Assembly (NCBI RefSeq): GCF_016901575.1
Contig: NZ_JACJKQ010000001.1
Span: 62,001-126,000, forward strand
Direction: 5' to 3'
DNA: 64,000 nt
Origin: Enorma phocaeensis
GTDB lineage: Bacteria; Actinomycetota; Coriobacteriia; Coriobacteriales; Coriobacteriaceae
Of the stretch, positions 45,520 through 58,986 are shown piece by piece. Position 1 is the first letter of the stretch, and each line of letters opens with the position of its first letter. The notes under the pieces are model-generated. The model made no database searches. It saw only the letters and a program-made list of their open reading frames with translations, and was not told where the DNA came from. Made by a program: the position numbers and the translations under genes.

Positions 45520-48500
45520 CTACTTTGCGACGCGTCCCGTATCTTCAAGCAGCACGCGCATGTCTTCGATGGCAGAAGAGACATCGTCCTCGTCCGCCTG
45601 CCAAGACCAGTTGCCGTCGGCTACGCCCGGCACGTTCATGCGAGCCGTATCGTCTAGCCCCAAGATGTCCTGAAGCGGGACCATGACCAGCTCGGCATCG
45701 CTCGCCATGGCGTTTCGCAGGAGCTTCTGGCCAAGGCTGCGAGCATACTCGGCATTGTCGGTGAACGAACGTGCGCAGAAGCCCACGAGCGTCGACGTGT
45801 CATGCGTGGAGGTATAGAAGATCTTGCCCGGATGCGGGTGCAGGCCGTCCAGCACGTTGTAGTCAGAGAATTCCAGAACGTCCATGCCGGGGAATCCACA
45901 TGTGGCGACAAGCGACCGAACGCCAGGAGTGAGCACGCCAAGGTCTTCCGCGATAAAGGGGAGCTGTCCGAGCTTTTCGTAAGCGCGGTCGAAGAGCTCC
46001 TTGCCCGGTCCGGGAAGCCAGCGGCCTTCAGAGCCCGGAGCGCCTGCGGGGATGCAGAAGTAGTTGTGGAAGCCCAGGAAATGGTCGAGACGCACGCGGT
46101 CATACAGGTCGCAGGCGCGGCCCAGGCGGGCAAGCCACCAACGGTAGCCGTCCTCGCGCATGACGTCCCAGCGGAAGGTGGGGTTGCCCCAGATCTGGCC
46201 GTCGGGCGCGAATCCATCGGGCGGAGCGCCGGCGATGCCGGAGGGGCGGCCGTCCTCGTCGAGGCAGAACATCTCAGGGTTGGTCCAGACGTCGGCGGAG
46301 TCATCAGAGACATACATGGGAATGTCGCCGATGATCTGGATGCCGCGACGATGGGCATGGGCCACCATGCGGCGCCATTCGACATCGAAGCGATACTGGA
46401 AATATGCCTGCGCCTCGGCCTCGGGACGATACTTGGGGCTCATGAGAATGCGCTCGTCGTAGCGTGAGAGGGCGGATGGCCACTCGTGGCGCGCCTCGCC
46501 CTTGCGAGCCGCCTTGACCGACATGAAGGCGCAGTAGGGCTTGAGCCAGAACGACTCCTTCTCGACGAATGCGCGATAGGCGGCGTCAGACTTCTCGCCG
46601 CCCTTGGCCTTCCAGGCGCGGAATTCGGCGCGAAGCTCCTTCTCGCTTTCGGGGAGCAGGTCGATGTTGCCCGCGAATGCAGAGGGGCCCGCATAGGGAG
46701 AGTTGAAGAGGTCGGTGGGGTTTACCGGCAGGACCTGCCAGTAACGCATCCCCATCGCTGCCAAATGATCGATGAAGCGACGGGCGGGGACGCCCAGGGT
46801 GCCTGTGCGGCCCTTGTCGGAGGGAAGCGAGGTGATGTGGCACACCACGCCCGCGCCGCGCTCGAGCGGCTTCTGGAGGCGTTGCTCGTCATGGAAGAGG
46901 ACGACCGCAGATCCGAAGGGCCACAGCGTGACGCCTACGGTGTCGTCCTCTGCAATGGGGAGCTCGGCTCCGGACACAATGTCGGTCGCCGCCTCGCCGC
47001 GTGCCGCGATGCGCACGGTATGGGAGGTGTCCCTGCTGCGGTTGATGATAACCGTGGCGCTGGTGCCGTCGGCGGCTGTTCGCGTGTAGCTCAGCACGTC
47101 ATCATCGAGCGCCTTTGCCGAGATGTCGCCATCCACCATGAAGGGGAGCGCGCGACGTACGGCCGAGGCGTTTTTCACGATGGTGAGCATGTCGCGGTCT
47201 TTGATGTCTTCCTCGAGTGGCAGGGTGCGACGGTTACCGGGATCGGAGAGGCCCTCGAGGCAATACTCATCGCCATAGTAGATCGAGGGAACGCCCGGGA
47301 ACGTCATCTGCATGAGGGTGGCGAGCCAGAATCGTGCCTTGGCAAGGCCCATGGCCTCGGGTGAGAGGCGCCAGCGGCCGCGCTCCTCCTCGGGAAGCTG
47401 GCTCTCATCGGGGCCGCCACCCAAGACGGAGGCGATGCGCGGCCGGTCGTGGCTGCCGAGAAGGTTCAAGCAGCATGCGAGCGCCTCGGGCGGATAGTTC
47501 TCGTGGAGCGACTCGATGACTTCCGCCGCGTCCTCGGCCGACATGTGACCCATGAGGAAGCCGATCACCATGTCGCGGAACGGATAGTTCATGGCCGAGT
47601 CGAGCTCTTCTCCCAGCAGATAGTGACGGAGGTGGCCATAGCTCTCTTTGTTGGAGGCGTCCTCCCAGACCTCACCCAAAAGAAGGCCGTCGGGGCGCTC
47701 CTCGAGAAGCGTGGTCTTGATATCGCGGATGAGCGATTCCGTGAGCTCGTCGGCAACGTCGAGGCGCCAGCCAGCCGCGCCTGCGCGCGTCCAATGGCGA
47801 ATGACGCCATCTTCGCCCAGCAGGAGCTCGCGAACGATAGGGGAGTCGCCGTTGAGGTCGGGCATGTTGCCGATGCCCCACCAGCAACTATAGGTGCCGT
47901 CCTCATTGAAGCAGTAGGCATCTCGCCATGGGGAGTCCTCACCTGCCCAGGCGCCTTTGCCGGGGTAGTTTTCAAAGCGGTTGAAGTAGATGGAGTCATC
48001 GCCGGTGTGGTTGAAGACGCCGTCCAAGATGATCGAGATGCCGTGCTCCTTGGCCTTTGCGCACAGCTCTCGGAAGTCCTCTTCGGTGCCGAGCATCGGA
48101 TCGATCTTCATGTAGTCGGCGGTGTCATAGCGATGGTTGCTCGCTGCCTCGAAGATGGGGTTCAAATAGATGACGGTGATGCCGAGCTCTTCCAGTCGAT
48201 CAAGATCCGAGGCGATGCCTTTGAGCGAGCCTCCGTAGAAGTCCCATGTGGTAATGGAGTTGTTCGGATTACGTTGATAGACGGGAGGCTCGTTCCAGTC
48301 TTCAACAACGTGGCGCCGGTAGCCGTTGTGAGGCTCTGCGGCCACCTTCTCGCATCGCTCGCGCCAGTTGGGGTCGCGGCGGTAGCGGTCCGGGAAGATT
48401 TGATAGACCATGCCGTTTTCATACCAGCTGGGGCGGACGGTGCGCGGCTCGTAGACGGTGAGCTGGAAGGAGGGGACGTTCTCGTAGTCGTAGGTCACGC

Positions 48501-48822
48501 CCTCGCCGCCGGTGCGGCCTTGTGGTGCGCCGCAGCGAAGCTCGCGCTCTTCGCCGTCCTTCTCGCAGCGCGCGATGAAGCTGTACCAGACGATGGCGGC
48601 ATGGCGGCACGGCACGACGATCGAGAACGTTTCGGGGCCGATTCGCTGCATGCGGTGGCGGCGCTCGCCTTCTCCGTCAACCCAGGTGCGAAGAAAGAGG
48701 CTGATCTCGCCCTCGTCGGGAGCAGCCTCGACTCGGACGTTCAGCGTGACGTCGGTGCCGACCTTTGCAGCTCCAAAGGGAGAGCGATATTCTGGCAGCC
48801 GACTGTTGTGAATCAATCTCAT
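45520..48822 (-). CDS. Fused GH13 alpha-glucan hydrolase and GH77 4-alpha-glucanotransferase
   Basis: A 1100-residue two-enzyme chain. The N-terminal part (to about 640) is a neopullulanase-like GH13 enzyme with a beta-sandwich (1-110) and barrel: FYGGSLKGI, GVFNHTGDD, GWRLDVADEL (nucleophile Asp), LLGEVWED (acid Glu) and LLGSHDRPRI. The C-terminal part (about 655-1100) is MalQ-like GH77: RAGVVCHITSLPS, RLDHFLGFHNYF (nucleophile), FIAEDLGVLTP (acid) and TSTHDTSTLVGF. All catalytic residues are present in both. It would open branches or cut linear chains and rearrange the maltodextrins freed from glycogen. It has its own promoter but follows glgA. Start has AGAGGGAAC upstream. Confidence 0.9.
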   Translation of the reverse strand: MRLIHNSRLPEYRSPFGAAKVGTDVTLNVRVEAAPDEGEISLFLRTWVDGEGERRHRMQRIGPETFSIVVPCRHAAIVWYSFIARCEKDGEERELRCGAPQGRTGGEGVTYDYENVPSFQLTVYEPRTVRPSWYENGMVYQIFPDRYRRDPNWRERCEKVAAEPHNGYRRHVVEDWNEPPVYQRNPNNSITTWDFYGGSLKGIASDLDRLEELGITVIYLNPIFEAASNHRYDTADYMKIDPMLGTEEDFRELCAKAKEHGISIILDGVFNHTGDDSIYFNRFENYPGKGAWAGEDSPWRDAYCFNEDGTYSCWWGIGNMPDLNGDSPIVRELLLGEDGVIRHWTRAGAAGWRLDVADELTESLIRDIKTTLLEERPDGLLLGEVWEDASNKESYGHLRHYLLGEELDSAMNYPFRDMVIGFLMGHMSAEDAAEVIESLHENYPPEALACCLNLLGSHDRPRIASVLGGGPDESQLPEEERGRWRLSPEAMGLAKARFWLATLMQMTFPGVPSIYYGDEYCLEGLSDPGNRRTLPLEEDIKDRDMLTIVKNASAVRRALPFMVDGDISAKALDDDVLSYTRTAADGTSATVIINRSRDTSHTVRIAARGEAATDIVSGAELPIAEDDTVGVTLWPFGSAVVLFHDEQRLQKPLERGAGVVCHITSLPSDKGRTGTLGVPARRFIDHLAAMGMRYWQVLPVNPTDLFNSPYAGPSAFAGNIDLLPESEKELRAEFRAWKAKGGEKSDAAYRAFVEKESFWLKPYCAFMSVKAARKGEARHEWPSALSRYDERILMSPKYRPEAEAQAYFQYRFDVEWRRMVAHAHRRGIQIIGDIPMYVSDDSADVWTNPEMFCLDEDGRPSGIAGAPPDGFAPDGQIWGNPTFRWDVMREDGYRWWLARLGRACDLYDRVRLDHFLGFHNYFCIPAGAPGSEGRWLPGPGKELFDRAYEKLGQLPFIAEDLGVLTPGVRSLVATCGFPGMDVLEFSDYNVLDGLHPHPGKIFYTSTHDTSTLVGFCARSFTDNAEYARSLGQKLLRNAMASDAELVMVPLQDILGLDDTARMNVPGVADGNWSWQADEDDVSSAIEDMRVLLEDTGRVAK

Positions 48823-48931
48823 AGGATAGTTCCCTCTACTACTGGCGCGGCGCACGTGGCATCTACGTCGCGCGAAGCAAAACTTCTCTAGTATATGGAA
48901 ACTGTAGTCTGCCTGCTAGCAAAGACTTGAA

Positions 48932-49159: not shown

Positions 49160-51454
49160 CTAGGAAGAACGACGGCGGGTCGTGGTCTTGCGGGCAGCAG
49201 AGACCTTCGTCGCCTTGGTTGTGGTCTTTGCCGTGCTGGCCTTGGCCGCCGGCTTGGTCTCCTTGGCCTCCTCGACGGGCGCCTCGGCTGCGGGCTTGGC
49301 AGGCTCGGTCTCACTCTTGACCGGAGCTGTCTTAGCGGCGGCCGCCTTCGTGGCGGCAGCCTTGGTAGCGGTGGCCTTGGTAGCGGTGGCCTTGGTAGCA
49401 GCGGCCTTGGTCGTCTTGGCCGTTGAAGCCTTAGGCGCCTCAGTCTCCTCGACGGGCTTCTCGGCAGCCGCCTTTGCCGATGCGGCCTTGGTGGCGGTCG
49501 TCTTGGCAGCCGCGGTCTTCTTCGCGGTCGTCTTGGTGGCAGCGGTCTTCGCCGTCGCTGTCTTGGTCGCGGCAGACTTGGTCGTCTTGGCGGCCGTGCT
49601 CTTGGTGGCAGTCTTTGTTGCCGTGCTCTTGGTAGCGGCCTTGGTCGCGGCGGTCTTTGCGGTCGTCGCCTTGGTTGCCGCCTTGGTCGTCTTCTTTGCA
49701 GCCGGCTTGGCAGCGGGCTTCTCCTCCTCGGCCTTTACCTCCTTGGCCGGAGCTTCCTCAGCGACAGGCTCCGCCTTGGGCTCAGAGGACTCGGCAACGC
49801 TCTCCTCTTCAACCGGTTCAGGGACCGCAGCGGTTGCAGGCTCCTCTTCAGCGGGCTTTTCGACAACGGGCTCGACGGGGGCAGCCTCGGGTTCAGGAGC
49901 GGCCTCGGGTTCGGGCTCGGGAGCAACCTCAGGTTCCGGCTCCGGGGCGGGCTCGCTTACCGGAGCCGGGGTCGGTTCAGGCTCCGGCTCGGGCATCACC
50001 TCTACATCAGGATGAAGGCTGCGATACAGGTCGATGTAGGCATCGGCCGAGCGCTTCCAGGTGAAGTCCTGGGTCATGGCGTGCTTGACGAGCTCGTTCC
50101 AAGAGTCGCGGTCGTCCCAGAACAGACGCGCCGCACGGAAGACGGCGTCGCCCATCTCGTCACCGTTGAAGTGGGCGAACGAGAAGCCCGTGCCCTCGCC
50201 GGTGAACTGGTTGTAGGGGATGACGGTGTCCTTGAGGCCGCCGGTCTCGCGGACGATGGGCAGGGTGCCGTAGCGCATGGCGATGATCTGAGACAGGCCG
50301 CAGGGCTCGAAGAGGGACGGCATGAGGAACATGTCGGCGCCGGAGTACATGCGGCGGGACAGCGCGGAGTCGAAGGTGAGGCGCACCGCCATGGAGCCAG
50401 GGTACTTGTTGGCGAAGTAGTTCATGGAGTCCTCGTAGTCGCCAGTGCCCAGAATGGCCACCTGCACGCCGCCGGAGAGAATCCTGTCGAGGGCATAGGT
50501 CACGAGGTCCATGCCCTTCTGACGGGTGAGGCGCGTTACCATGACCATGAGCGGGCGGTCGGAGCGAACCTCGAGGCCGAGCTCCTGCTGAAGGGCCGCC
50601 TTGCAGGCCGCCTTGCCCTCCATGTTGTCAACGGAGTAGTTCTCGGTGAGCTGATAGTCGGTCGAGGGGTCCCACTCGACGGTGTCGATGCCGTTCAGGA
50701 TGCCCGAGAGGATGTTGTTGCGGCGTCGCAGCACGCCGTCGAGGTGCTCTCCGTATTCGGGCGTCTGGATCTCGCCCGCATAGGTGGGGGAGACGGTGGT
50801 GATGGCATCGGTGTAGTTCAGGGCTCCGAGCATATAGTTGATCGAGCTCGAGTCGCAGCGCAGCTGGCGGGCGGCGTTGGGGATGTGCGCCAGGCCCAGC
50901 ACGTCGTTCAGGATGGTGTCGGAGAACTGGCCCTGGAACGCGATGTTGTGAATCGAGAAGACGGTCTTCACGCGCTCATAGAGGGGCAGGCCCTGATAGA
51001 ACTCGCGCAGGAACACCGGCGACAGCGCGGTGTGCCAGTCGTTGCAGTGCAGGATGTCGCACTGGAAGCCATCGGGGAGGTGCTGGAGGCTCTCGGTGAC
51101 CGCCTTGGAGAAGAACGCGAAGCGCTCGCCGTCATCGAAAAAGCCATAGGGATAGCTCCGGGCGAAATAGTGCTCGTTGTCGAGGAAGAGATAGGTGATG
51201 CCGTCGAGGTCGAGGCGCTCGAGCCCGCAGTACTCGTTGCGCCAGCCCAGGCTGACGTAGAACTCGCCAACATGCTGCATCTGCTGGGTGTAGTAGTCGG
51301 GAATCGTGGAGTATTTCGGCACCATGACGATAACGTCGGCGCCGGCCTTTTTGAGCGCCTTGGGGAGCGATCCCGCGACGTCTCCCAGGCCACCGGTCTT
51401 TACAAAGGGCGCCGCCTCGGCGGAGGCGAATACCACTTGCATCTTTTTAGCCAT
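49160..51454 (-). CDS. glgA: Glycogen synthase with acidic and histone H1-like C-terminal tail
   Basis: A 764-residue protein. Residues 1-482 are a complete GT5 glycogen synthase that adds glucose from ADP-glucose to alpha-1,4 chains: KTGGLGDVAGSLPKAL (ADP-glucose binding), HCNDWHTAL, TRLTRQKGMDL and SLFEPCGLSQIIAMRYG (active-site loop). The usual length is about 480. About 280 residues follow: first Pro/Glu-rich and acidic (487-570, EPEPTPAPVSEPAPEPEPEV), then almost only Ala, Lys and Thr (575-764, AAKKTTKAATKATTAKTAAT and similar), resembling histone H1 tails. GlgB has a similar basic tail. GGAGG precedes the ATG at 51454. The tail may bind polyanions or the granule; this is inference. Confidence 0.93.
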   Translation of the reverse strand: MAKKMQVVFASAEAAPFVKTGGLGDVAGSLPKALKKAGADVIVMVPKYSTIPDYYTQQMQHVGEFYVSLGWRNEYCGLERLDLDGITYLFLDNEHYFARSYPYGFFDDGERFAFFSKAVTESLQHLPDGFQCDILHCNDWHTALSPVFLREFYQGLPLYERVKTVFSIHNIAFQGQFSDTILNDVLGLAHIPNAARQLRCDSSSINYMLGALNYTDAITTVSPTYAGEIQTPEYGEHLDGVLRRRNNILSGILNGIDTVEWDPSTDYQLTENYSVDNMEGKAACKAALQQELGLEVRSDRPLMVMVTRLTRQKGMDLVTYALDRILSGGVQVAILGTGDYEDSMNYFANKYPGSMAVRLTFDSALSRRMYSGADMFLMPSLFEPCGLSQIIAMRYGTLPIVRETGGLKDTVIPYNQFTGEGTGFSFAHFNGDEMGDAVFRAARLFWDDRDSWNELVKHAMTQDFTWKRSADAYIDLYRSLHPDVEVMPEPEPEPTPAPVSEPAPEPEPEVAPEPEPEAAPEPEAAPVEPVVEKPAEEEPATAAVPEPVEEESVAESSEPKAEPVAEEAPAKEVKAEEEKPAAKPAAKKTTKAATKATTAKTAATKAATKSTATKTATKSTAAKTTKSAATKTATAKTAATKTTAKKTAAAKTTATKAASAKAAAEKPVEETEAPKASTAKTTKAAATKATATKATATKAAATKAAAAKTAPVKSETEPAKPAAEAPVEEAKETKPAAKASTAKTTTKATKVSAARKTTTRRRSS
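49359..49403 (-). repeat. Tandem 15-bp repeat inside the GlgA tail
   Basis: GCCTTGGTAGCGGTG occurs twice exactly (49359-49373, 49374-49388) and once with a few changes (49389-49403). On the coding strand each unit gives five residues of the Ala/Thr/Lys type, so copy-number change keeps the frame. Confidence 0.7.
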
Positions 51455-51579: not shown

Positions 51580-52686
51580 CTACTTCAGGGCAGCCTTGCC
51601 CACAACCAGGATGTCGTCGGGAGTGCCGCTCAGCTCGGTGTTGGCAGCCACCACGTTGTCCTTGTCGAGGATCGCGTTCTCGACGTGAGCACCGCTCTTG
51701 ATGGTGCAGGACTGCATGATGATGCTGTTCACCACGTTGGCGCCGGCCTCGACCGTCACGCCGCGCGCGAGGATGGAGTTGCGCACGGTACCCTTGATCT
51801 CGCAGCCTGCGGAGATGCGGGAGTTGCACGCGACGGAACCGGAGAAGTACTTCGCCGGCGGCGCGTCATGGGCCTTGGTGAGAATCGGGCGCTCCTTCAT
51901 GAACAGCTTGTTCGAGGTCGTCGGGTCGAGCAGCTCCATGCTGCGACGGAAGTAGGTGTCCTCGTTGAAGAAGCCCATGGCCAGGCCCTTGAACTCGTAG
52001 CTGCACACGTCGATGCGCTCGAAGTCGGGCGCGATGGCCTCAAAGAGGTCGAGGTAGTCGGCGCTGGCATACTGGTCGATGATCTGGAGCAGCAGCGGAC
52101 GGTTGATGACGACGCAATCGAGGAACTTGTTGTCGCCGTAGCTGCAGCCCTGGCGGAAGCCCTTCACGCGGCCCGCCTCGCCGATCTCGAGCGACATGGC
52201 GTCGTCCTGATGACGTTCGGCGCGCACGTAGACCATCGTGATGCCGACGCCGCTGGCCTCATGGGCTTCGATCACGGCGTTGAGGTCCATGTTGAAGATG
52301 ATGTTCGAACCCATCAGCACGACATAGGGCTTGTCGGAGCGCTGGAAGAGCGTCTTGTTGGAGATGATGTCACGGAGCAGGAAGCGCATGCCCTGCTTGG
52401 TGGCGCCGTAGGGGTTGCCGGGAAGCGGGAACAGGCCGCCCTTCTTGCGGTCGAGGCCCCAGTCCTTGCCATGGCCGACGTGGTCGACGATGGAGCGATA
52501 GTTGCCCGGCATCACGAGGCCCACGGTCTTCACGCCGGCGTTGGCGAGGTTGGACAGCGGGAAGTCGATGAGACGGTAGCGGCCCATGAACGGGATGGAC
52601 GCGAGCGGACGGCTGTCGAGCAGGACGCTGTGCTCCCTGCTGGTGTAGTTAGCGGTGATATAGCCGATGGCCTTGCGGTTGATCAT
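51580..52686 (-). CDS. glgD: ADP-glucose pyrophosphorylase regulatory subunit GlgD
   Basis: A 368-residue relative of GlgC with a nucleotidyltransferase domain (IGYITANYTSREHSVLLDSRPLASIPFMGRYRLIDF) in which the GGxGxRL glycine loop of active enzymes is absent, and a left-handed beta-helix C-terminus (SRISAGCEIKGTVRNSILA). GlgD is non-catalytic in Bacillus and forms a heterotetramer with GlgC, raising its activity. The gene begins four bases after the glgC stop. The start at 52686 has AAGGGGG upstream. Confidence 0.92.
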   Translation of the reverse strand: MINRKAIGYITANYTSREHSVLLDSRPLASIPFMGRYRLIDFPLSNLANAGVKTVGLVMPGNYRSIVDHVGHGKDWGLDRKKGGLFPLPGNPYGATKQGMRFLLRDIISNKTLFQRSDKPYVVLMGSNIIFNMDLNAVIEAHEASGVGITMVYVRAERHQDDAMSLEIGEAGRVKGFRQGCSYGDNKFLDCVVINRPLLLQIIDQYASADYLDLFEAIAPDFERIDVCSYEFKGLAMGFFNEDTYFRRSMELLDPTTSNKLFMKERPILTKAHDAPPAKYFSGSVACNSRISAGCEIKGTVRNSILARGVTVEAGANVVNSIIMQSCTIKSGAHVENAILDKDNVVAANTELSGTPDDILVVGKAALK

Positions 52687-52690
52687 CGGT

Positions 52691-53836
52691 TCATTCCCCC
52701 TTCCCGATGACGACGTCGTTTCCAACGACGGCGGTGTCCTTCGTGGTGTCGACCGAGCCGAGCTTCACGCCCTCCTCGACGACGGCGTTCTCACCGATGA
52801 TGGCGCGGCAGATGTGAGCGCCGGCCTTGATGACGGCACCAGGCAGCAGGACGGAGTCCTCGACGATGGCGCGCTCGCCGATCACGCAGTCGGTGGAGAT
52901 GACGGAGTGGCGGGCGGTGCCCAGGATCTCGCAGCCGTTGGAGACCAGGCAGTCATCGACCTTGCCGTCCGGGCCGATATAGTGAGGCGGACGGGTGGTG
53001 TCGTTGCTCATGATGGGCGTCTTGTAGTCATACAGGTCGAAGTAGGGATTCGGTCCCAGGAGATCCATGCTGGTCTCGTGGTAGCTGGCGATGGTGCCTA
53101 CGTCCTTCCAGAAGCCCTCGAATTTGTGGACGAACAGGCGCTTGCCGTCAGCCAAAGCCTTGGGGATGATGTCGCCGCCGAAGTCATGGCTGGAGCGCTG
53201 GTCGAGCGCGTCCTCCTCGAGGGCATTGATGAGGAAGTCGGCGGTGAAGATGTAGATGCCCATGGAAGCGAGGTTCGAATCAGGCTTCTCGGGCTTCTCG
53301 GTGAACTTGGTGATCTTGCCTTCGTCGTCGGTGGTGAGGATGCCGAAGCGGCTTGCGTCCTCCCACGGCACGGGCATGACGGCGACGGTCAGATCGGCAT
53401 TGTTGCTGATATGGGTGTGAAGCATTTCGCGATAGTCCATGCGATACAGGGCGTCGCCGGACAGGATGAGCACGTACTCGGGGTCGTGCGACTTGATGTA
53501 GTCGAGGTTCTGCGTCACCGCGTCGGCGGTTCCGGCGTACCAGGCGCCGCCATCCTGGGTGGCATAGGGGGGAAGGATGGAAACGCCACCGCCGCGCTCG
53601 TCAAGATCCCACGCAGAGCCGGAGCCCAGGTAGGCATGCAGGCGATAGGGACGGTACTGGGTCAGCACGCCCACGGTGTCGATGCCTGAATTCGAGCAGT
53701 TCGACAACGTGAAGTCGATGATCCTGTACTTGCCTCCGAATGAGACGGCTGGTTTGGCAATCTTAGATGTGAGCGCCCCCAACCTACTGCCCTGTCCTCC
53801 TGCGAGGAGCATGGCGATGCATTCTTTTTTGCTCAT
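52691..53836 (-). CDS. glgC: Glucose-1-phosphate adenylyltransferase
   Basis: A 381-residue enzyme that forms ADP-glucose from glucose 1-phosphate and ATP, the committed step of glycogen synthesis. [27 protein letters not shown] has the catalytic glycine loop and Lys; the substrate-binding FTEKPEKP and [11 protein letters not shown] and the C-terminal beta-helix are all present. The active-site DxD type [14 protein letters not shown] is intact. AAGGAGAAC precedes the ATG. With GlgD it should make a GlgCD heteromer. Confidence 0.96.
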
Positions 53837-53956: not shown

Positions 53957-56383
53957 CTATGCGTGCCAGATCTCGTCGCGATACTCTCGAATGGTGCGGT
54001 CGCTCGAGAAATGACCCGAGTTGGCCGTGTTGTGGAGCGCCATACGGTTCCACGCGAGGGTGTCGCCATAAGCCTCCGTGAGCTCCTCCCACGCCTGGAC
54101 ATAGGAGTGGAAGTCCTTGAGCACGAGGTCATGGTCGTTGTTGTCCATGAGCTCGCGACGGATGGAGTCGAACGTGCCCGAGAGGCGCGAGAACGTGCTG
54201 TCGGTCAGCTCGTCCACGCAGCGGCCGAGACGGTCGCGGTCTGCGTTGTACTCATCCCAGGAGAAGTAGTGACCGCTCTTCTGCAGCGCCACGACCTCGG
54301 GCTCGGTGAGGCCGAAGATCTTGACGTTCTCGCGACCTGCGAGGTCGGCGATCTCGATGTTCGCGCCGTCGAGGGTTCCGAGCGTGATCGCGCCGTTCAT
54401 CATGAGCTTCATGTTCGAGGTGCCCGAGGCCTCCTGGCCGGCAGTGGAGATCTGCTCGGAGATCTCGGCGGCGGAGTAGATGAGCTGGGCGTTCGAGACT
54501 CGGAAGTTGGGGATGAACACGACCTTGATGCGGTCGTTCACGCGCTCGTCGGAGTTCACGACGTCGGCGACCGAGTTGATGAGGCGGATGACCTCCTTGG
54601 CGAAGTAATAGCTCTGGGCTGCCTTGCCGGAGAAGATGAAAGTCGTCGGGCGAACCGTGAAGTCGGGGTCGTCGAGCAGGCGGTTATAGATGTCCATGAC
54701 CTTGAAGATGTTCAGAAGCTGGCGCTTGTACGCGTGGAAGCGCTTGACCTGAACGTCGAAGACCGAGCTGGGGTCGACCACGATGCCGGTCGTCTCCTTG
54801 ATGTAGCGGGCGAGGCGCTCTTTGTTCTCTCGCTTCGAGGCCGCCATGGCGAGCAGGAAGTCCTCGTCATCGACGTAGTCCTCGAGCTTCTTGAGCTCCA
54901 TGGCGTCATCGAGCCAGCCGGTACCGATCTTCGAGGTGATGAGCTTCGAATAGGAGGGGTTGGCCTCGGCGAGGAAGCGACGGTGGGTGACGCCGTTGGT
55001 CTTGTTGTTGAACTTCTCGGGCGTGAGCTCGTAGAACTCCTTGAAGACCTGCTCCTTCAGGATCTTGGTATGGAGCTCGGCGACGCCGTTGACGGAGTGG
55101 CTGCATACGATGGAGAGGTTCGCCATGCGTACCTCTCCATCCCAGAGGATGGCGGTCTTCTGGAACATCTCGCGCCACTCGGGATTGTCCGACGGGAAGC
55201 TCTCGCGGAAACGGCGGGCGATCTCGTCGATGATCTGGTAGAGGCGCGGAAGCAGCGGCTTGAACGTGGTGATGGGCCACTTCTCGAGCGCTTCGGGGAG
55301 AACGGTGTGGTTGGTGAAAGACACGGTCTTGGTGACGATGTCCCAGGCCTCGTCCCACTCCAGGCCCTCCTCGTCCATGAGGACGCGCATGAGCTCGGGG
55401 CCGCACATGGCCGGATGGGTATCGTTGGTGTGAATGGCCACATACTCCGGAAGGAGCTTCCAATCGGAGCCATGCTCCTTGCGGAAGGTGCGCAGAATGG
55501 AGTTGATGCCGGCGGCAACAAACAGGTACTCCTGCTTGAGACGCAAGATTTTACCATGCTCACCGGCGTCGGCGGGGTAGAGGATCGTGGAGATGGCCTC
55601 CGCCTCGGCGCGGCCGGCGTTGGCCTGCGCGTAGTCGCCGCGGTTGAAGGCGTCCAGGTCGAAGAGGTCCTCGTTGGGCTCTGCCTTCCAGACGCGCAGC
55701 TTGTTTACCAGCTTGCCGCCATAGGCGACCACGGGGATGTCGTAGGGGACAGCAAGGATCTTCTGCCCGCCGTCGATGCGCCACATGGTGCGGCCGTCCT
55801 TCTCGTAGGACACGCTCGTGCCACCAAAGACAACCTCGACGGCGCTCTCGGGACGACGGGACTCCCAGGGGTAGTCGTGCTTGAGCCAGTTGTCCGCAAG
55901 CTCGACCTGGCGGCCGTCGACGATCTCCTGCTTGAACAGGCCGTACTCATAGCGCATGCCGTTGCCGTAGAAGGCGATGCCCTCGTGCGCGGCAGATGCG
56001 AGGAAGCAGGCGGCGAGGCGGCCCAGGCCGCCGTTGCCGAGCGCTGCGTCGGGCTCGCGGATCTCGAGCTCCTCGAGGGTGGTTCCCATCTCCTTGAGGG
56101 CGTCGGACACCATGTCGCGGATGCCGAAGTTCAGCAGGTAGTTGTCGAGCAGGCGGCCGATAAGGAACTCGAGGGAGAAGTAGTACACGCGCTTCTGGCC
56201 GGTATTCTCGATCTCAAGCTCGTTTTCGCTCGCAATGCGACGGGCGCGAGTGGCAATGAGCTCGGCGAGGGCATAGAAGCGGTCGTGCGAGCCGCAGAGC
56301 TCGAACTCCTTGCCGGTGTTGGCGCGGACCATCGCACGGTACTGCGTGATGAAGTCCTGCTTGTCTTTGAAGATCTGATTCAT
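53957..56383 (-). CDS. glgP: Glycogen phosphorylase
   Basis: An 808-residue GT35 enzyme that releases glucose 1-phosphate from glycogen ends using phosphate and pyridoxal phosphate. The Lys that holds the cofactor is in EASGTSNMKLMMNGAITLGTLDGANIEI. Other conserved stretches are EPDAALGNGGLGRLAACFLAS, FSLEFLIGR, and KRFHAYKRQLLNI. Its length is that of the family and no tail is present, unlike GlgA and GlgB. GGAAAGGAAG lies five bases before the ATG. Second gene of the glycogen cluster. Confidence 0.97.
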   Translation of the reverse strand: MNQIFKDKQDFITQYRAMVRANTGKEFELCGSHDRFYALAELIATRARRIASENELEIENTGQKRVYYFSLEFLIGRLLDNYLLNFGIRDMVSDALKEMGTTLEELEIREPDAALGNGGLGRLAACFLASAAHEGIAFYGNGMRYEYGLFKQEIVDGRQVELADNWLKHDYPWESRRPESAVEVVFGGTSVSYEKDGRTMWRIDGGQKILAVPYDIPVVAYGGKLVNKLRVWKAEPNEDLFDLDAFNRGDYAQANAGRAEAEAISTILYPADAGEHGKILRLKQEYLFVAAGINSILRTFRKEHGSDWKLLPEYVAIHTNDTHPAMCGPELMRVLMDEEGLEWDEAWDIVTKTVSFTNHTVLPEALEKWPITTFKPLLPRLYQIIDEIARRFRESFPSDNPEWREMFQKTAILWDGEVRMANLSIVCSHSVNGVAELHTKILKEQVFKEFYELTPEKFNNKTNGVTHRRFLAEANPSYSKLITSKIGTGWLDDAMELKKLEDYVDDEDFLLAMAASKRENKERLARYIKETTGIVVDPSSVFDVQVKRFHAYKRQLLNIFKVMDIYNRLLDDPDFTVRPTTFIFSGKAAQSYYFAKEVIRLINSVADVVNSDERVNDRIKVVFIPNFRVSNAQLIYSAAEISEQISTAGQEASGTSNMKLMMNGAITLGTLDGANIEIADLAGRENVKIFGLTEPEVVALQKSGHYFSWDEYNADRDRLGRCVDELTDSTFSRLSGTFDSIRRELMDNNDHDLVLKDFHSYVQAWEELTEAYGDTLAWNRMALHNTANSGHFSSDRTIREYRDEIWHA

Positions 56384-56458: not shown

Positions 56459-58867
56459 TCACTTGGATGTCGATGTCTTTTTTGTCGTTGATGAGGTTTT
56501 TCGGGTCGAAGTCTTTGTGGATGTGCTTGCCGCCTTCTTCGCGGTGGACGTCGACCGTTTGGTCGTCTTCGTGGCAGGTGCGGCCTCGGTGGCAGCAGGC
56601 GCGTCGGCGGCTGCTGCCTTCGTCGTTGCCGCCTTTGTCGCCGTGGATTTCGCGGTCTTCGTGGCGCTCGTCTTCGCGGCTGCGGACCTCGTGGTCTTTT
56701 TCGCCGTCGTCTTGGAAGCGCCGTCGGTCGCCTTTGCGGCGGTCTTGGTGCTCTTCTTGGCGGCGGTGCGCTTCGTCGTGCGCTTGGTGGTGCGCTTGGG
56801 CTTCGGAGGCACATAGGAGCTCGGACCCACGCGCTTCAACACCACGCCGGCAAGCCCGGGCACGCTGATCGTGACGGATTCGTCGCAGCCGTTCCAAGGA
56901 TAGGGCTCGCTCGGGAACACCTTGCCCTCGAGGTTGTCGATCTCGTATCCGCTTCCGCCGAACTCAGGGTTGTCAGAATCGAAGATGACCTTCCAATCGC
57001 CCTCGCGCGGGACGCCCATGCGGAAGGTCTCGTAGGACGCCGGATCGAAGTTGATGAGCACGACGAGGTCGTCATCGGGGTCCTCGCCATGGCGCACGAA
57101 CGAGATGATCGACTGCTGAGAGTTGTTCGCGTCGATCCAGGTGAAGCCGTCCTCGGTGTAGCCGCGCTGCCAGAAGGCGGGCTCGGACAGGTAGAGCTTG
57201 TTGAGCGCCTTGACGAACTGCTGGTGATGGCGATGCGTCTCATATTCATCGACCAGGAACCACTGGATGGACTCGTAGTAGCGCCACTCGATGAACTGGG
57301 CGATCTCGTTGCCCATAAAGGAGAGCTGCGCGCCCGGATGGGTGATCTGATAGAACACGAGCGTGCGCAGGCCTGCGAACTGGCGCCACCAGTCTCCCGG
57401 CATGCGGCCCATGAGCGAGCACTTGCCGTTCACGACCTCGTCATGGCTGAGCGGCAGCACGAAGTTCTCGTTGAAGGCGTACATGATCGAGAAGGTGAGC
57501 AGGCGGTGCGCGCCGGGACGCCACGGGAAGTCGGTCTGCATGTAGTGCAGGGTGTCGTTCATCCAGCCCATATCCCACTTGTAGTGGAATCCCAGGCCAC
57601 CCTCCTCGGGCGGATAGGTCACGAGCGGCCACGCGGTAGACTCTTCGGCGATCATCATGACGTCGGGGAACTCGCGACCGACGGCAGCGTTGACCTGGCG
57701 GATGAATGCCGAGGCGTCGAGGTCTTCCTCGGTGCCGTACTTGTTGAACTTCTTCTGGCCGGGGTCATCCACGCCGAAGTTGAGGTAGAGCATGCTCGAG
57801 ACGCCGTCCATACGGATGCCGTCCGCATGGAACATCTCGATCCAGAACAGCGCGTTCGAGACGAGGAAGCTGCGGACCTCCCCGCGCCCGAAATCGAATT
57901 TGTGGGTGCCCCAGTTGGGGTGAATCTCGCGCTCGAAGAGCATGTGCCCGTTGAAGGTCGCGAGGCCCTCCTCGTTGGCGCAGAAACCGCCCGGAACCCA
58001 GTCGAGGATGACGCCGATGCCAGCCTGGTGGCAGGCGTCGACGAAGTGCATGAGCTGCTTGGGCTCGCCATACCGCGAGGTCGCGGCGTAGTAGCCGGTG
58101 GGCTGGTAGCCCCACGAGCCGTCAAAGGGGTGCTCCATGACGGGCAGGACCTCGATGTGCGAGTAGCCCATCTCCTTGACGTAGTCTACAAGCTCGACAG
58201 AGAGGTCGTCGTAGGTATAGACCTCGCCGCGCTGCGCGGGGAAGGGGTCGCCGGGACCCGGATAGTTGCCATTCTCGTCGGGCTCGCCCTGCGGCTCGTC
58301 GCCGTGGCGCTTCCATGAGCCGAGATGCACCTCATAGATGTTCAGAGGTTCCTTCATGTGGTCGTGCGTGCGACGGTGCTCGAGCCACGCGCCGTCGCCC
58401 CACGCGTAGCCCGTGATGTCCATGAGGCGCGATGCGGTTCCGGGGGCCTGCTCGGCGTAGAACGCATACGGGTCCGCCTTGTACAGCAGGTCGCCCGAGT
58501 CGGTCTCGAGCACGAACTTGTAGAGGTCTCCCTGGGCAAGTCCGGCGACGAATCCCTGCCACATGCCGCTCTTCGCGATGGGATAGAGCTCGTTGGCTTC
58601 AGGGTCCCACTCGTTGAAGTCGCCGACAACATGAACACTCTTGACATCGGGTGCCCAGATGCAGAAGTGCCAGCCCTCGACGCCGTCCTGGACGTCGGGG
58701 TGCGCGCCCATCTTTTCCCAGCTACGCTGCCATGTACCGTTGGCGAACATGTAGATGTCGTCATCGGTCATGATGAGGACGGGCTTCTCTGCGGCGTCGG
58801 CTGCCTTGCTGGCAGCGGTTTTCGCCGACGGGGCGGGTGCTGGAGCGTTCTTCTTCATATGACTCAT
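56459..58867 (-). CDS. glgB: Glycogen branching enzyme with histone H1-like C-terminal tail
   Basis: A GH13 branching enzyme of about 802 residues that makes alpha-1,6 branches. It has a CBM48 domain (FCIWAPDVKSVHVVGDFNEWD), the barrel motifs EVLPVMEHPFDGSWGYQPTGY, DGIRMDGVSSML (nucleophile Asp), MIAEESTAW (acid Glu) and VLPLSHDEVVNGK, and the C-terminal beta domain ending GVVLKRVGPSS. A further 116 residues, starting KPKRTTKRTTKRTAAKKSTK, are mostly Ala, Lys, Thr and Ser. The N-terminus too has a short Ala/Pro/Lys stretch (residues 4-27). First gene of the cluster. The start is either 58867 or the ATG three codons on. Confidence 0.93.
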   Translation of the reverse strand: MSHMKKNAPAPAPSAKTAASKAADAAEKPVLIMTDDDIYMFANGTWQRSWEKMGAHPDVQDGVEGWHFCIWAPDVKSVHVVGDFNEWDPEANELYPIAKSGMWQGFVAGLAQGDLYKFVLETDSGDLLYKADPYAFYAEQAPGTASRLMDITGYAWGDGAWLEHRRTHDHMKEPLNIYEVHLGSWKRHGDEPQGEPDENGNYPGPGDPFPAQRGEVYTYDDLSVELVDYVKEMGYSHIEVLPVMEHPFDGSWGYQPTGYYAATSRYGEPKQLMHFVDACHQAGIGVILDWVPGGFCANEEGLATFNGHMLFEREIHPNWGTHKFDFGRGEVRSFLVSNALFWIEMFHADGIRMDGVSSMLYLNFGVDDPGQKKFNKYGTEEDLDASAFIRQVNAAVGREFPDVMMIAEESTAWPLVTYPPEEGGLGFHYKWDMGWMNDTLHYMQTDFPWRPGAHRLLTFSIMYAFNENFVLPLSHDEVVNGKCSLMGRMPGDWWRQFAGLRTLVFYQITHPGAQLSFMGNEIAQFIEWRYYESIQWFLVDEYETHRHHQQFVKALNKLYLSEPAFWQRGYTEDGFTWIDANNSQQSIISFVRHGEDPDDDLVVLINFDPASYETFRMGVPREGDWKVIFDSDNPEFGGSGYEIDNLEGKVFPSEPYPWNGCDESVTISVPGLAGVVLKRVGPSSYVPPKPKRTTKRTTKRTAAKKSTKTAAKATDGASKTTAKKTTRSAAAKTSATKTAKSTATKAATTKAAAADAPAATEAAPATKTTKRSTSTAKKAASTSTKTSTRKTSSTTKKTSTSK

Positions 58868-58986
58868 CCAATCGATCAGGCGGCGCTGCCGCTGTCCGAT
58901 AGATACCTTGTCTGGGGCGTGGCGTGGTTGTGCGATGCCGATGTATGCATCGGCATGCATGTGCGCTGCCTAGACGTTCATTCACG

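Follow-up and report, generated by a model that had tools for sequence, protein, structure and literature searches.

Histone H1-like tails on granule proteins are a known means of tethering PHB and polyphosphate (polyP) granules to the bacterial nucleoid (PMC13052382). In Pseudomonas putida, the PHA-associated protein PhaF combines a granule-bound N-terminal part with a disordered H1-like C-terminal tail that binds DNA, contains "4- and 5-aa repetitions" and places the granules (PMC3574117). PhaM of Cupriavidus/Ralstonia binds DNA by a histone-like domain, attaches PHB granules to the nucleoid and works together with the polymer synthase (PMC13052382). AlgP of Pseudomonas aeruginosa, whose loss leads to fewer and larger polyP granules, has an H1-like C-terminal tail with KPAA/KTAAA repeats (PMC9239181). 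Little is known about the placement and sharing-out of bacterial glycogen: it goes unmentioned in a 2025 review on how bacteria position their organelles, and a 2024 review on the alpha-glucan enzymes of prokaryotes states that bacterial glycogen contains no protein that would cluster its particles. In Escherichia coli, over-made glycogen and GlgA-GFP gather at the old poles at a cost to replicative lifespan (PMC4836754), so that a tether would have a problem to solve. The open-access literature searched yielded no description of a lysine-rich or disordered tail on a bacterial GlgB or GlgA or of nucleoid-tethered glycogen, and nothing relevant on glycogen in Coriobacteria.

The glycogen genes of Enorma phocaeensis encode such tails on two enzymes. 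While H1-like granule tethers are a known concept, such a tail on glycogen-building enzymes is new. PhaF is a non-enzymatic PHA phasin, whereas here the tail is fused to an enzyme that builds glycogen, and its DNA binding is putative. PhaM is a separate adaptor activating PhaC, whereas here the synthase and the branching enzyme are themselves tailed. AlgP belongs to another polymer and has a non-enzymatic N-terminal domain, and its repeats are more regular than the Thr/Ser-rich GlgB tails. A relationship to Phasin or AlgP by descent was not detected, the only domains found in GlgB being GH13/CBM48 and Alpha-amylase_C.

The C-terminal tail of GlgB

The window (64,000 nucleotides of contig NZ_JACJKQ010000001.1) contains glgB at 56459-58960 on the minus strand, an uninterrupted reading frame of 833 aa from the longest ATG start. 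Its catalytic body (CBM48, GH13 and Alpha-amylase_C; 56810-58783, minus strand, residues about 60-717) was delimited by Pfam, structure and curated-model matches and places the protein clearly in the GlgB family, with 798.8 bits for NF008967 (cut-off 577) and 712.9 for TIGR01515 (cut-off 463.95). Ordinary GH13 branching enzymes of solved structure (PDB 5gqz, 3k1d, 1m7x) resemble it over the whole body, residues about 64-713, 5gqz with an E value of 1e-185; unlike the body, the lysine-rich tail is matched by none of them. Matches to the curated models and solved structures end no later than residue 714 (about 713), that to 1m7x, which we take to be the E. coli enzyme, already at residue 710, where the Pfam Alpha-amylase_C domain also ends.

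The remaining 116 residues (718-833; 56462-56809, minus strand) comprise K25, R6, A28, T34, S14, P5, D2 and E1, giving a net charge of +28, and include not a single L, I, V, F, W, M, Y or C. In the AlphaFold model, which was built on 23 Coriobacteriia sequences and is as a whole only moderate (mean pLDDT 64), the last strand lies at residue 712 and the tail has a pLDDT of 25-41 and no secondary structure. Thus, reading frame and composition bore out the original prediction that GlgB ends in 116 residues rich in Lys, Thr, Ala and Ser; that they lie outside the GH13 fold agrees with the end of the homologous core by residue 714 and with the predicted last strand, and their designation as H1-like is justified by the Lys/Ala-rich composition, the strong positive charge and the predicted disorder. 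A regular tandem repeat of the KPAA type was not found, the tail in the window being Thr-rich and irregularly spaced. A short Ala/Lys/Pro-rich stretch (MKKNAPAPAPSAKTAASKAADAAEKP; 58780-58890) also precedes the catalytic body at the N-terminus, where the choice of the start codon is uncertain.

Distribution of the GlgB tail

The survey of the order covered 199 genomes in which GlgB and GlgA were found, with the sequence of the glg region read for about 98 of them. When only tails of at least 35 aa and clearly positive charge (+8 or more) were counted, GlgB was tailed at the same position in 44 of 50 Coriobacteriaceae and 40 of 46 Atopobiaceae (84/96 together). The length of the tail drifts fast (9-265 aa overall, 15-265 aa in most), the charge being kept. 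Five species (G048, G052, G144, G164 and G138) have shed or shortened it. In G138, a lysine-rich remnant was sought in every downstream frame and none was found, which excludes a frameshifted or broken tail and indicates that its short tail is real.

No lysine-rich tail was present on 30 GlgBs of other Actinomycetota or in G143, a member of another family (f2) of the same order. The branching enzymes of the Coriobacteriia share 54-58% identity with some Bacillota GlgBs versus about 45% with those of other actinobacteria, and the history of glgB in Coriobacteriaceae and Atopobiaceae therefore probably includes gene transfer. The basic tails of the nearest Bacillota GlgBs reach at most 15-21 aa. 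In a sample biased toward relatives of the query, long basic tails were found in nine of 37 Bacillota records and one of Spirochaetota, whereas 38 further records, which belonged to other phyla or had no phylum label, showed none. The GlgBs sampled from cyanobacteria, Chloroflexota and most other phyla lack such a tail. The Bacillota cases belong to Selenomonadaceae (Mitsuokella, 116 aa; Anaerovibrio, 191 and 200 aa), Oscillospiraceae (Fournierella, Pygmaiobacter), Eubacteriaceae and Lachnospiraceae. Hence, the tail described for a single gene cluster is real but no isolated oddity: it is a feature of two whole families, and it is older and wider than had been supposed, extending into Bacillota. 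That tails of this kind recur on the branching enzyme of gut anaerobes only distantly related to each other suggests a need common to them. Another GlgB-like protein of this genome (L139, G000:C18:25388-27073), a diverged one with a 700-aa frame and 39% identity, lacks a lysine-rich tail.

A possible nucleoid tether for glycogen

By analogy with PhaF, PhaM and AlgP, we tentatively propose that the GlgB tail is an H1-like polycationic anchor, which may tie the glycogen-building enzymes, and hence the granules, to nucleoid DNA. As an intrinsically disordered polycation, it would bind polyanions irrespective of their sequence, with the DNA of the nucleoid as the most likely partner. Since GlgB sits on the growing glucan, to which it is assigned by its enzyme family (residence on granules being putative), the tail would attach glycogen granules to the nucleoid as they form. 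Granules held in this way would stay many and small and be shared by the daughter cells, instead of gathering at the old poles. Later, GlgA, the glycogen synthase, gained a basic tail behind an acidic spacer in the Collinsella clade, which would add another such anchor. From the presence, charge, lysine spacing, predicted disorder, distribution and near-confinement of the tails to glycogen-building enzymes we infer all three elements, i.e., DNA as the partner, the tethering of granules and the effect on segregation. More doubtful, though still conceivable, is the broader statement that glycogen granules are anchored to the nucleoid by enzyme-borne H1-like tails throughout Coriobacteriaceae and Atopobiaceae and, by convergence, in several gut Bacillota, GlgB having been recruited first and GlgA later. 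If true, this would make glycogen the third kind of storage granule to rely on the H1-like solution and give the first example of its tethering to the nucleoid. The recurrence of a polycationic GlgB tail in common gut bacteria makes a possible link between glycogen and chromosome checkable by a single deletion.

In favor of a tether, the place and the charge of the tail are conserved in two families despite free drift of its sequence, and the GlgB tail exists without a GlgA tail in Atopobiaceae and Bacillota. Against it stand the tailless GlgBs of other actinobacteria and of most other phyla sampled, the several species that shed or shortened the tail, and the lysine spacing of 4-5 residues, which is not reproduced in Bacillota tails. 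Moreover, RNA, polyP and teichoic acids fit the charge of the tail as well as DNA does. It could be that the tail binds RNA, ribosomes or polyP and acts as a general polyanion scaffold, forming a polyanion-rich condensate round the granules, and we regard this as rather unlikely. Charge alone does not discriminate between DNA, RNA and polyP, an H1-like protein (AlgP) is associated with granules of polyP (PMC9239181), and PPK1 is present in the E. phocaeensis genome. The GlgB tail was short or missing in eight of 16 genomes without PPK1 as opposed to five of 66 with it, a raw association that was not significant on phylogenetically independent pairs and goes with small genomes. Furthermore, four species with strong tails of +27 to +37 (G092, G108, G124 and G140) gave no match to PPK1 or PPK2, so that polyP is excluded as a necessary partner. 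Genomes that are small and lack PPK1 more often have a short GlgB tail or none, a trend entangled with kinship.

Conservation and spacing of the lysines and rarity of lysine-rich stretches

The tail might also have no specific partner, being either a charged entropic bristle that keeps the glucan-bound enzyme soluble and spaces granules by repulsion, or a weakly selected low-complexity sequence that lengthens and shortens through repeat slippage. The fast-changing length (9-265 aa), the repeat-like sequence and the loss of the tail in several species are in line with this. The residues themselves point the other way, and we consider the explanation unlikely. Among 22 close Collinsella relatives, column conservation was 0.954 for lysine and 0.949 for lysine plus arginine versus 0.809 for A/T/S/P (p about 6e-5, with columns treated as independent), and the tails hardly admit acidic or hydrophobic residues. 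Lysine is also kept in genomes of 61-65% GC, the tails are nearly exclusive to GlgB and GlgA, and one and the same enzyme acquired them repeatedly, in several families of bacteria.

The spacing of the lysines was compared with shuffles of the same tails. In Coriobacteriia, lysine pairs 4-5 residues apart were enriched and those 2-3 apart depleted in both enzymes, with z values for GlgB of +3.6 at 4, +10.7 at 5 and -12.6 at 2, and for GlgA of +4.9 at 4, +19.1 at 5 and -11.9 at 2, all of which overstate independence as the tails are related by descent. The enriched intervals agree with the repeats described for the DNA-binding tail of PhaF (PMC3574117) and with the KPAA/KTAAA repeats of AlgP (PMC9239181). 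Bacillota GlgB tails favored, more weakly, a spacing of 5-6, and 4 was depleted; thus the lysine intervals of 4-5 residues found in Coriobacteriia are shifted in Bacillota.

Applied to 383 kb plus about 60 kb of this genome, a strict filter for lysine-rich 40-aa stretches retrieved only GlgA and GlgB. A looser filter returned 82 GlgBs, 50 GlgAs and one doubtful small ORF from 2.2 Mb of glg loci, and two more proteins, identified by eye as an ABC-F-like linker and an FtsK-like N-terminus, from 0.45 Mb of this genome. The near-confinement of such stretches to the two enzymes indicates that the tail is specific and, for the scanned part of the genome, rules out lysine tails as a general habit of the proteome. 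Scanning for the codon pattern KxxKxxK proved to be a poor probe, by which GlgA itself was missed. The FtsK-like protein, by eye a DNA translocase (L133; G000 C1, about 284-304 kb), thus carries at its N-terminus one of the few other lysine-rich stretches in the scanned part of the genome.

The GlgA tail and its relation to that of GlgB

Within the same cluster, GlgA has a C-terminal tail of 269 aa (49163-49969, minus strand), the GlgA models ending at residues 512-518. Its composition changes along the sequence: an acidic Pro/Glu-rich spacer of 83 aa and net charge -23 (49721-49969, minus strand) follows the GlgA body and is itself followed by a basic Lys-Ala-Thr part of 186 aa and net charge +33 (49163-49720, minus strand), which was delimited by composition and comparison with relatives and ends in a VSAARK...RRR motif. 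Where GlgA is tailed, the tail measures 89-316 aa and is acidic and then basic in most genomes. The original prediction held the other glycogen enzymes to be tailless, and the comparison agreed with this. GlgP (53957-56383), GlgC (52691-53836) and GlgD (51580-52725), all encoded on the minus strand, had no C-terminal extension of more than 8 aa in 79-80 genomes, and the GH13-GH77 fusion enzyme (45520-48855, minus strand) is without a tail in the E. phocaeensis window.

It had also been suggested that the tails of GlgA and GlgB share a docking partner within one coordinated device. Since lysines are spaced by 4-5 residues in both tails, it is plausible that the two bind the same type of partner. 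A device needing both tails is contradicted by their distribution, and the expected co-variation fails at the level of the order. GlgA was tailless in 39 of the 40 Atopobiaceae with a tailed GlgB, in the Coriobacteriaceae genus g5 and in seven of eight tailed Bacillota with GlgA in reach; the single Atopobiaceae GlgA with a tail has a short one of 38 aa. Conversely, six Collinsella-clade genomes possess a GlgA tail and a short or weak GlgB tail. On a tree of 77 genomes, 37 had only the GlgB tail, 26 both, six only the GlgA tail and eight none. The GlgB tail changed nine times on the tree of both enzymes and the GlgA tail three times, one of these changes being an artefact of a contig end (L035), and no association of the two tails was found on phylogenetically independent pairs from the 77 genomes. 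Nearly all genomes of the Collinsella clade have both tails, a co-occurrence that reflects one shared origin. Although this co-occurrence, the common lysine spacing and a possible binding of the +28 GlgB tail by the acidic part of GlgA (net -23) would suit a docking device in which both tails bind the same partner together or one another, it is improbable given the many GlgB tails standing alone, the six genomes with a GlgA tail and little GlgB tail, and the missing association on independent pairs.

The GlgA tail is limited to Coriobacteriaceae other than genus g5 and to one Selenomonadales record. The GlgB tail is the older one; that of GlgA came later and goes back to essentially a single gain in the Collinsella clade. 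The two tails are thus separate gains; obligatory pairing is not supported and, given the order-wide distribution and the tree, was ruled out. Nor is the GlgB tail a recent copy of the GlgA tail, as had rightly been predicted, since the two differ in architecture and age. Redundancy, by which the GlgB tail would be lost only where GlgA is tailed, fitted the first set of trees and then failed when more Atopobiaceae were included; it was dropped because G048, G052, G144 and the rest of g27 have a short GlgB tail and no GlgA tail.

Both long basic tails (GlgA, 181 aa; GlgB, 52 aa) were also seen in the uncultured Selenomonadales RUG048 (L201), the sole case outside Coriobacteriaceae and apparently an independent double gain. 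In one genome of 61% GC (G153, L073), arginine replaces many lysines jointly in the tails of GlgA and GlgB, both of which are arginine-rich there and no longer rich in lysine and threonine. The GlgA tails of the Collinsella clade are often closed, amid drifting disordered sequence, by the motif VSAARK-x(3-6)-R[KR]R (49163-49210 in E. phocaeensis), which is possibly a docking motif of its own.
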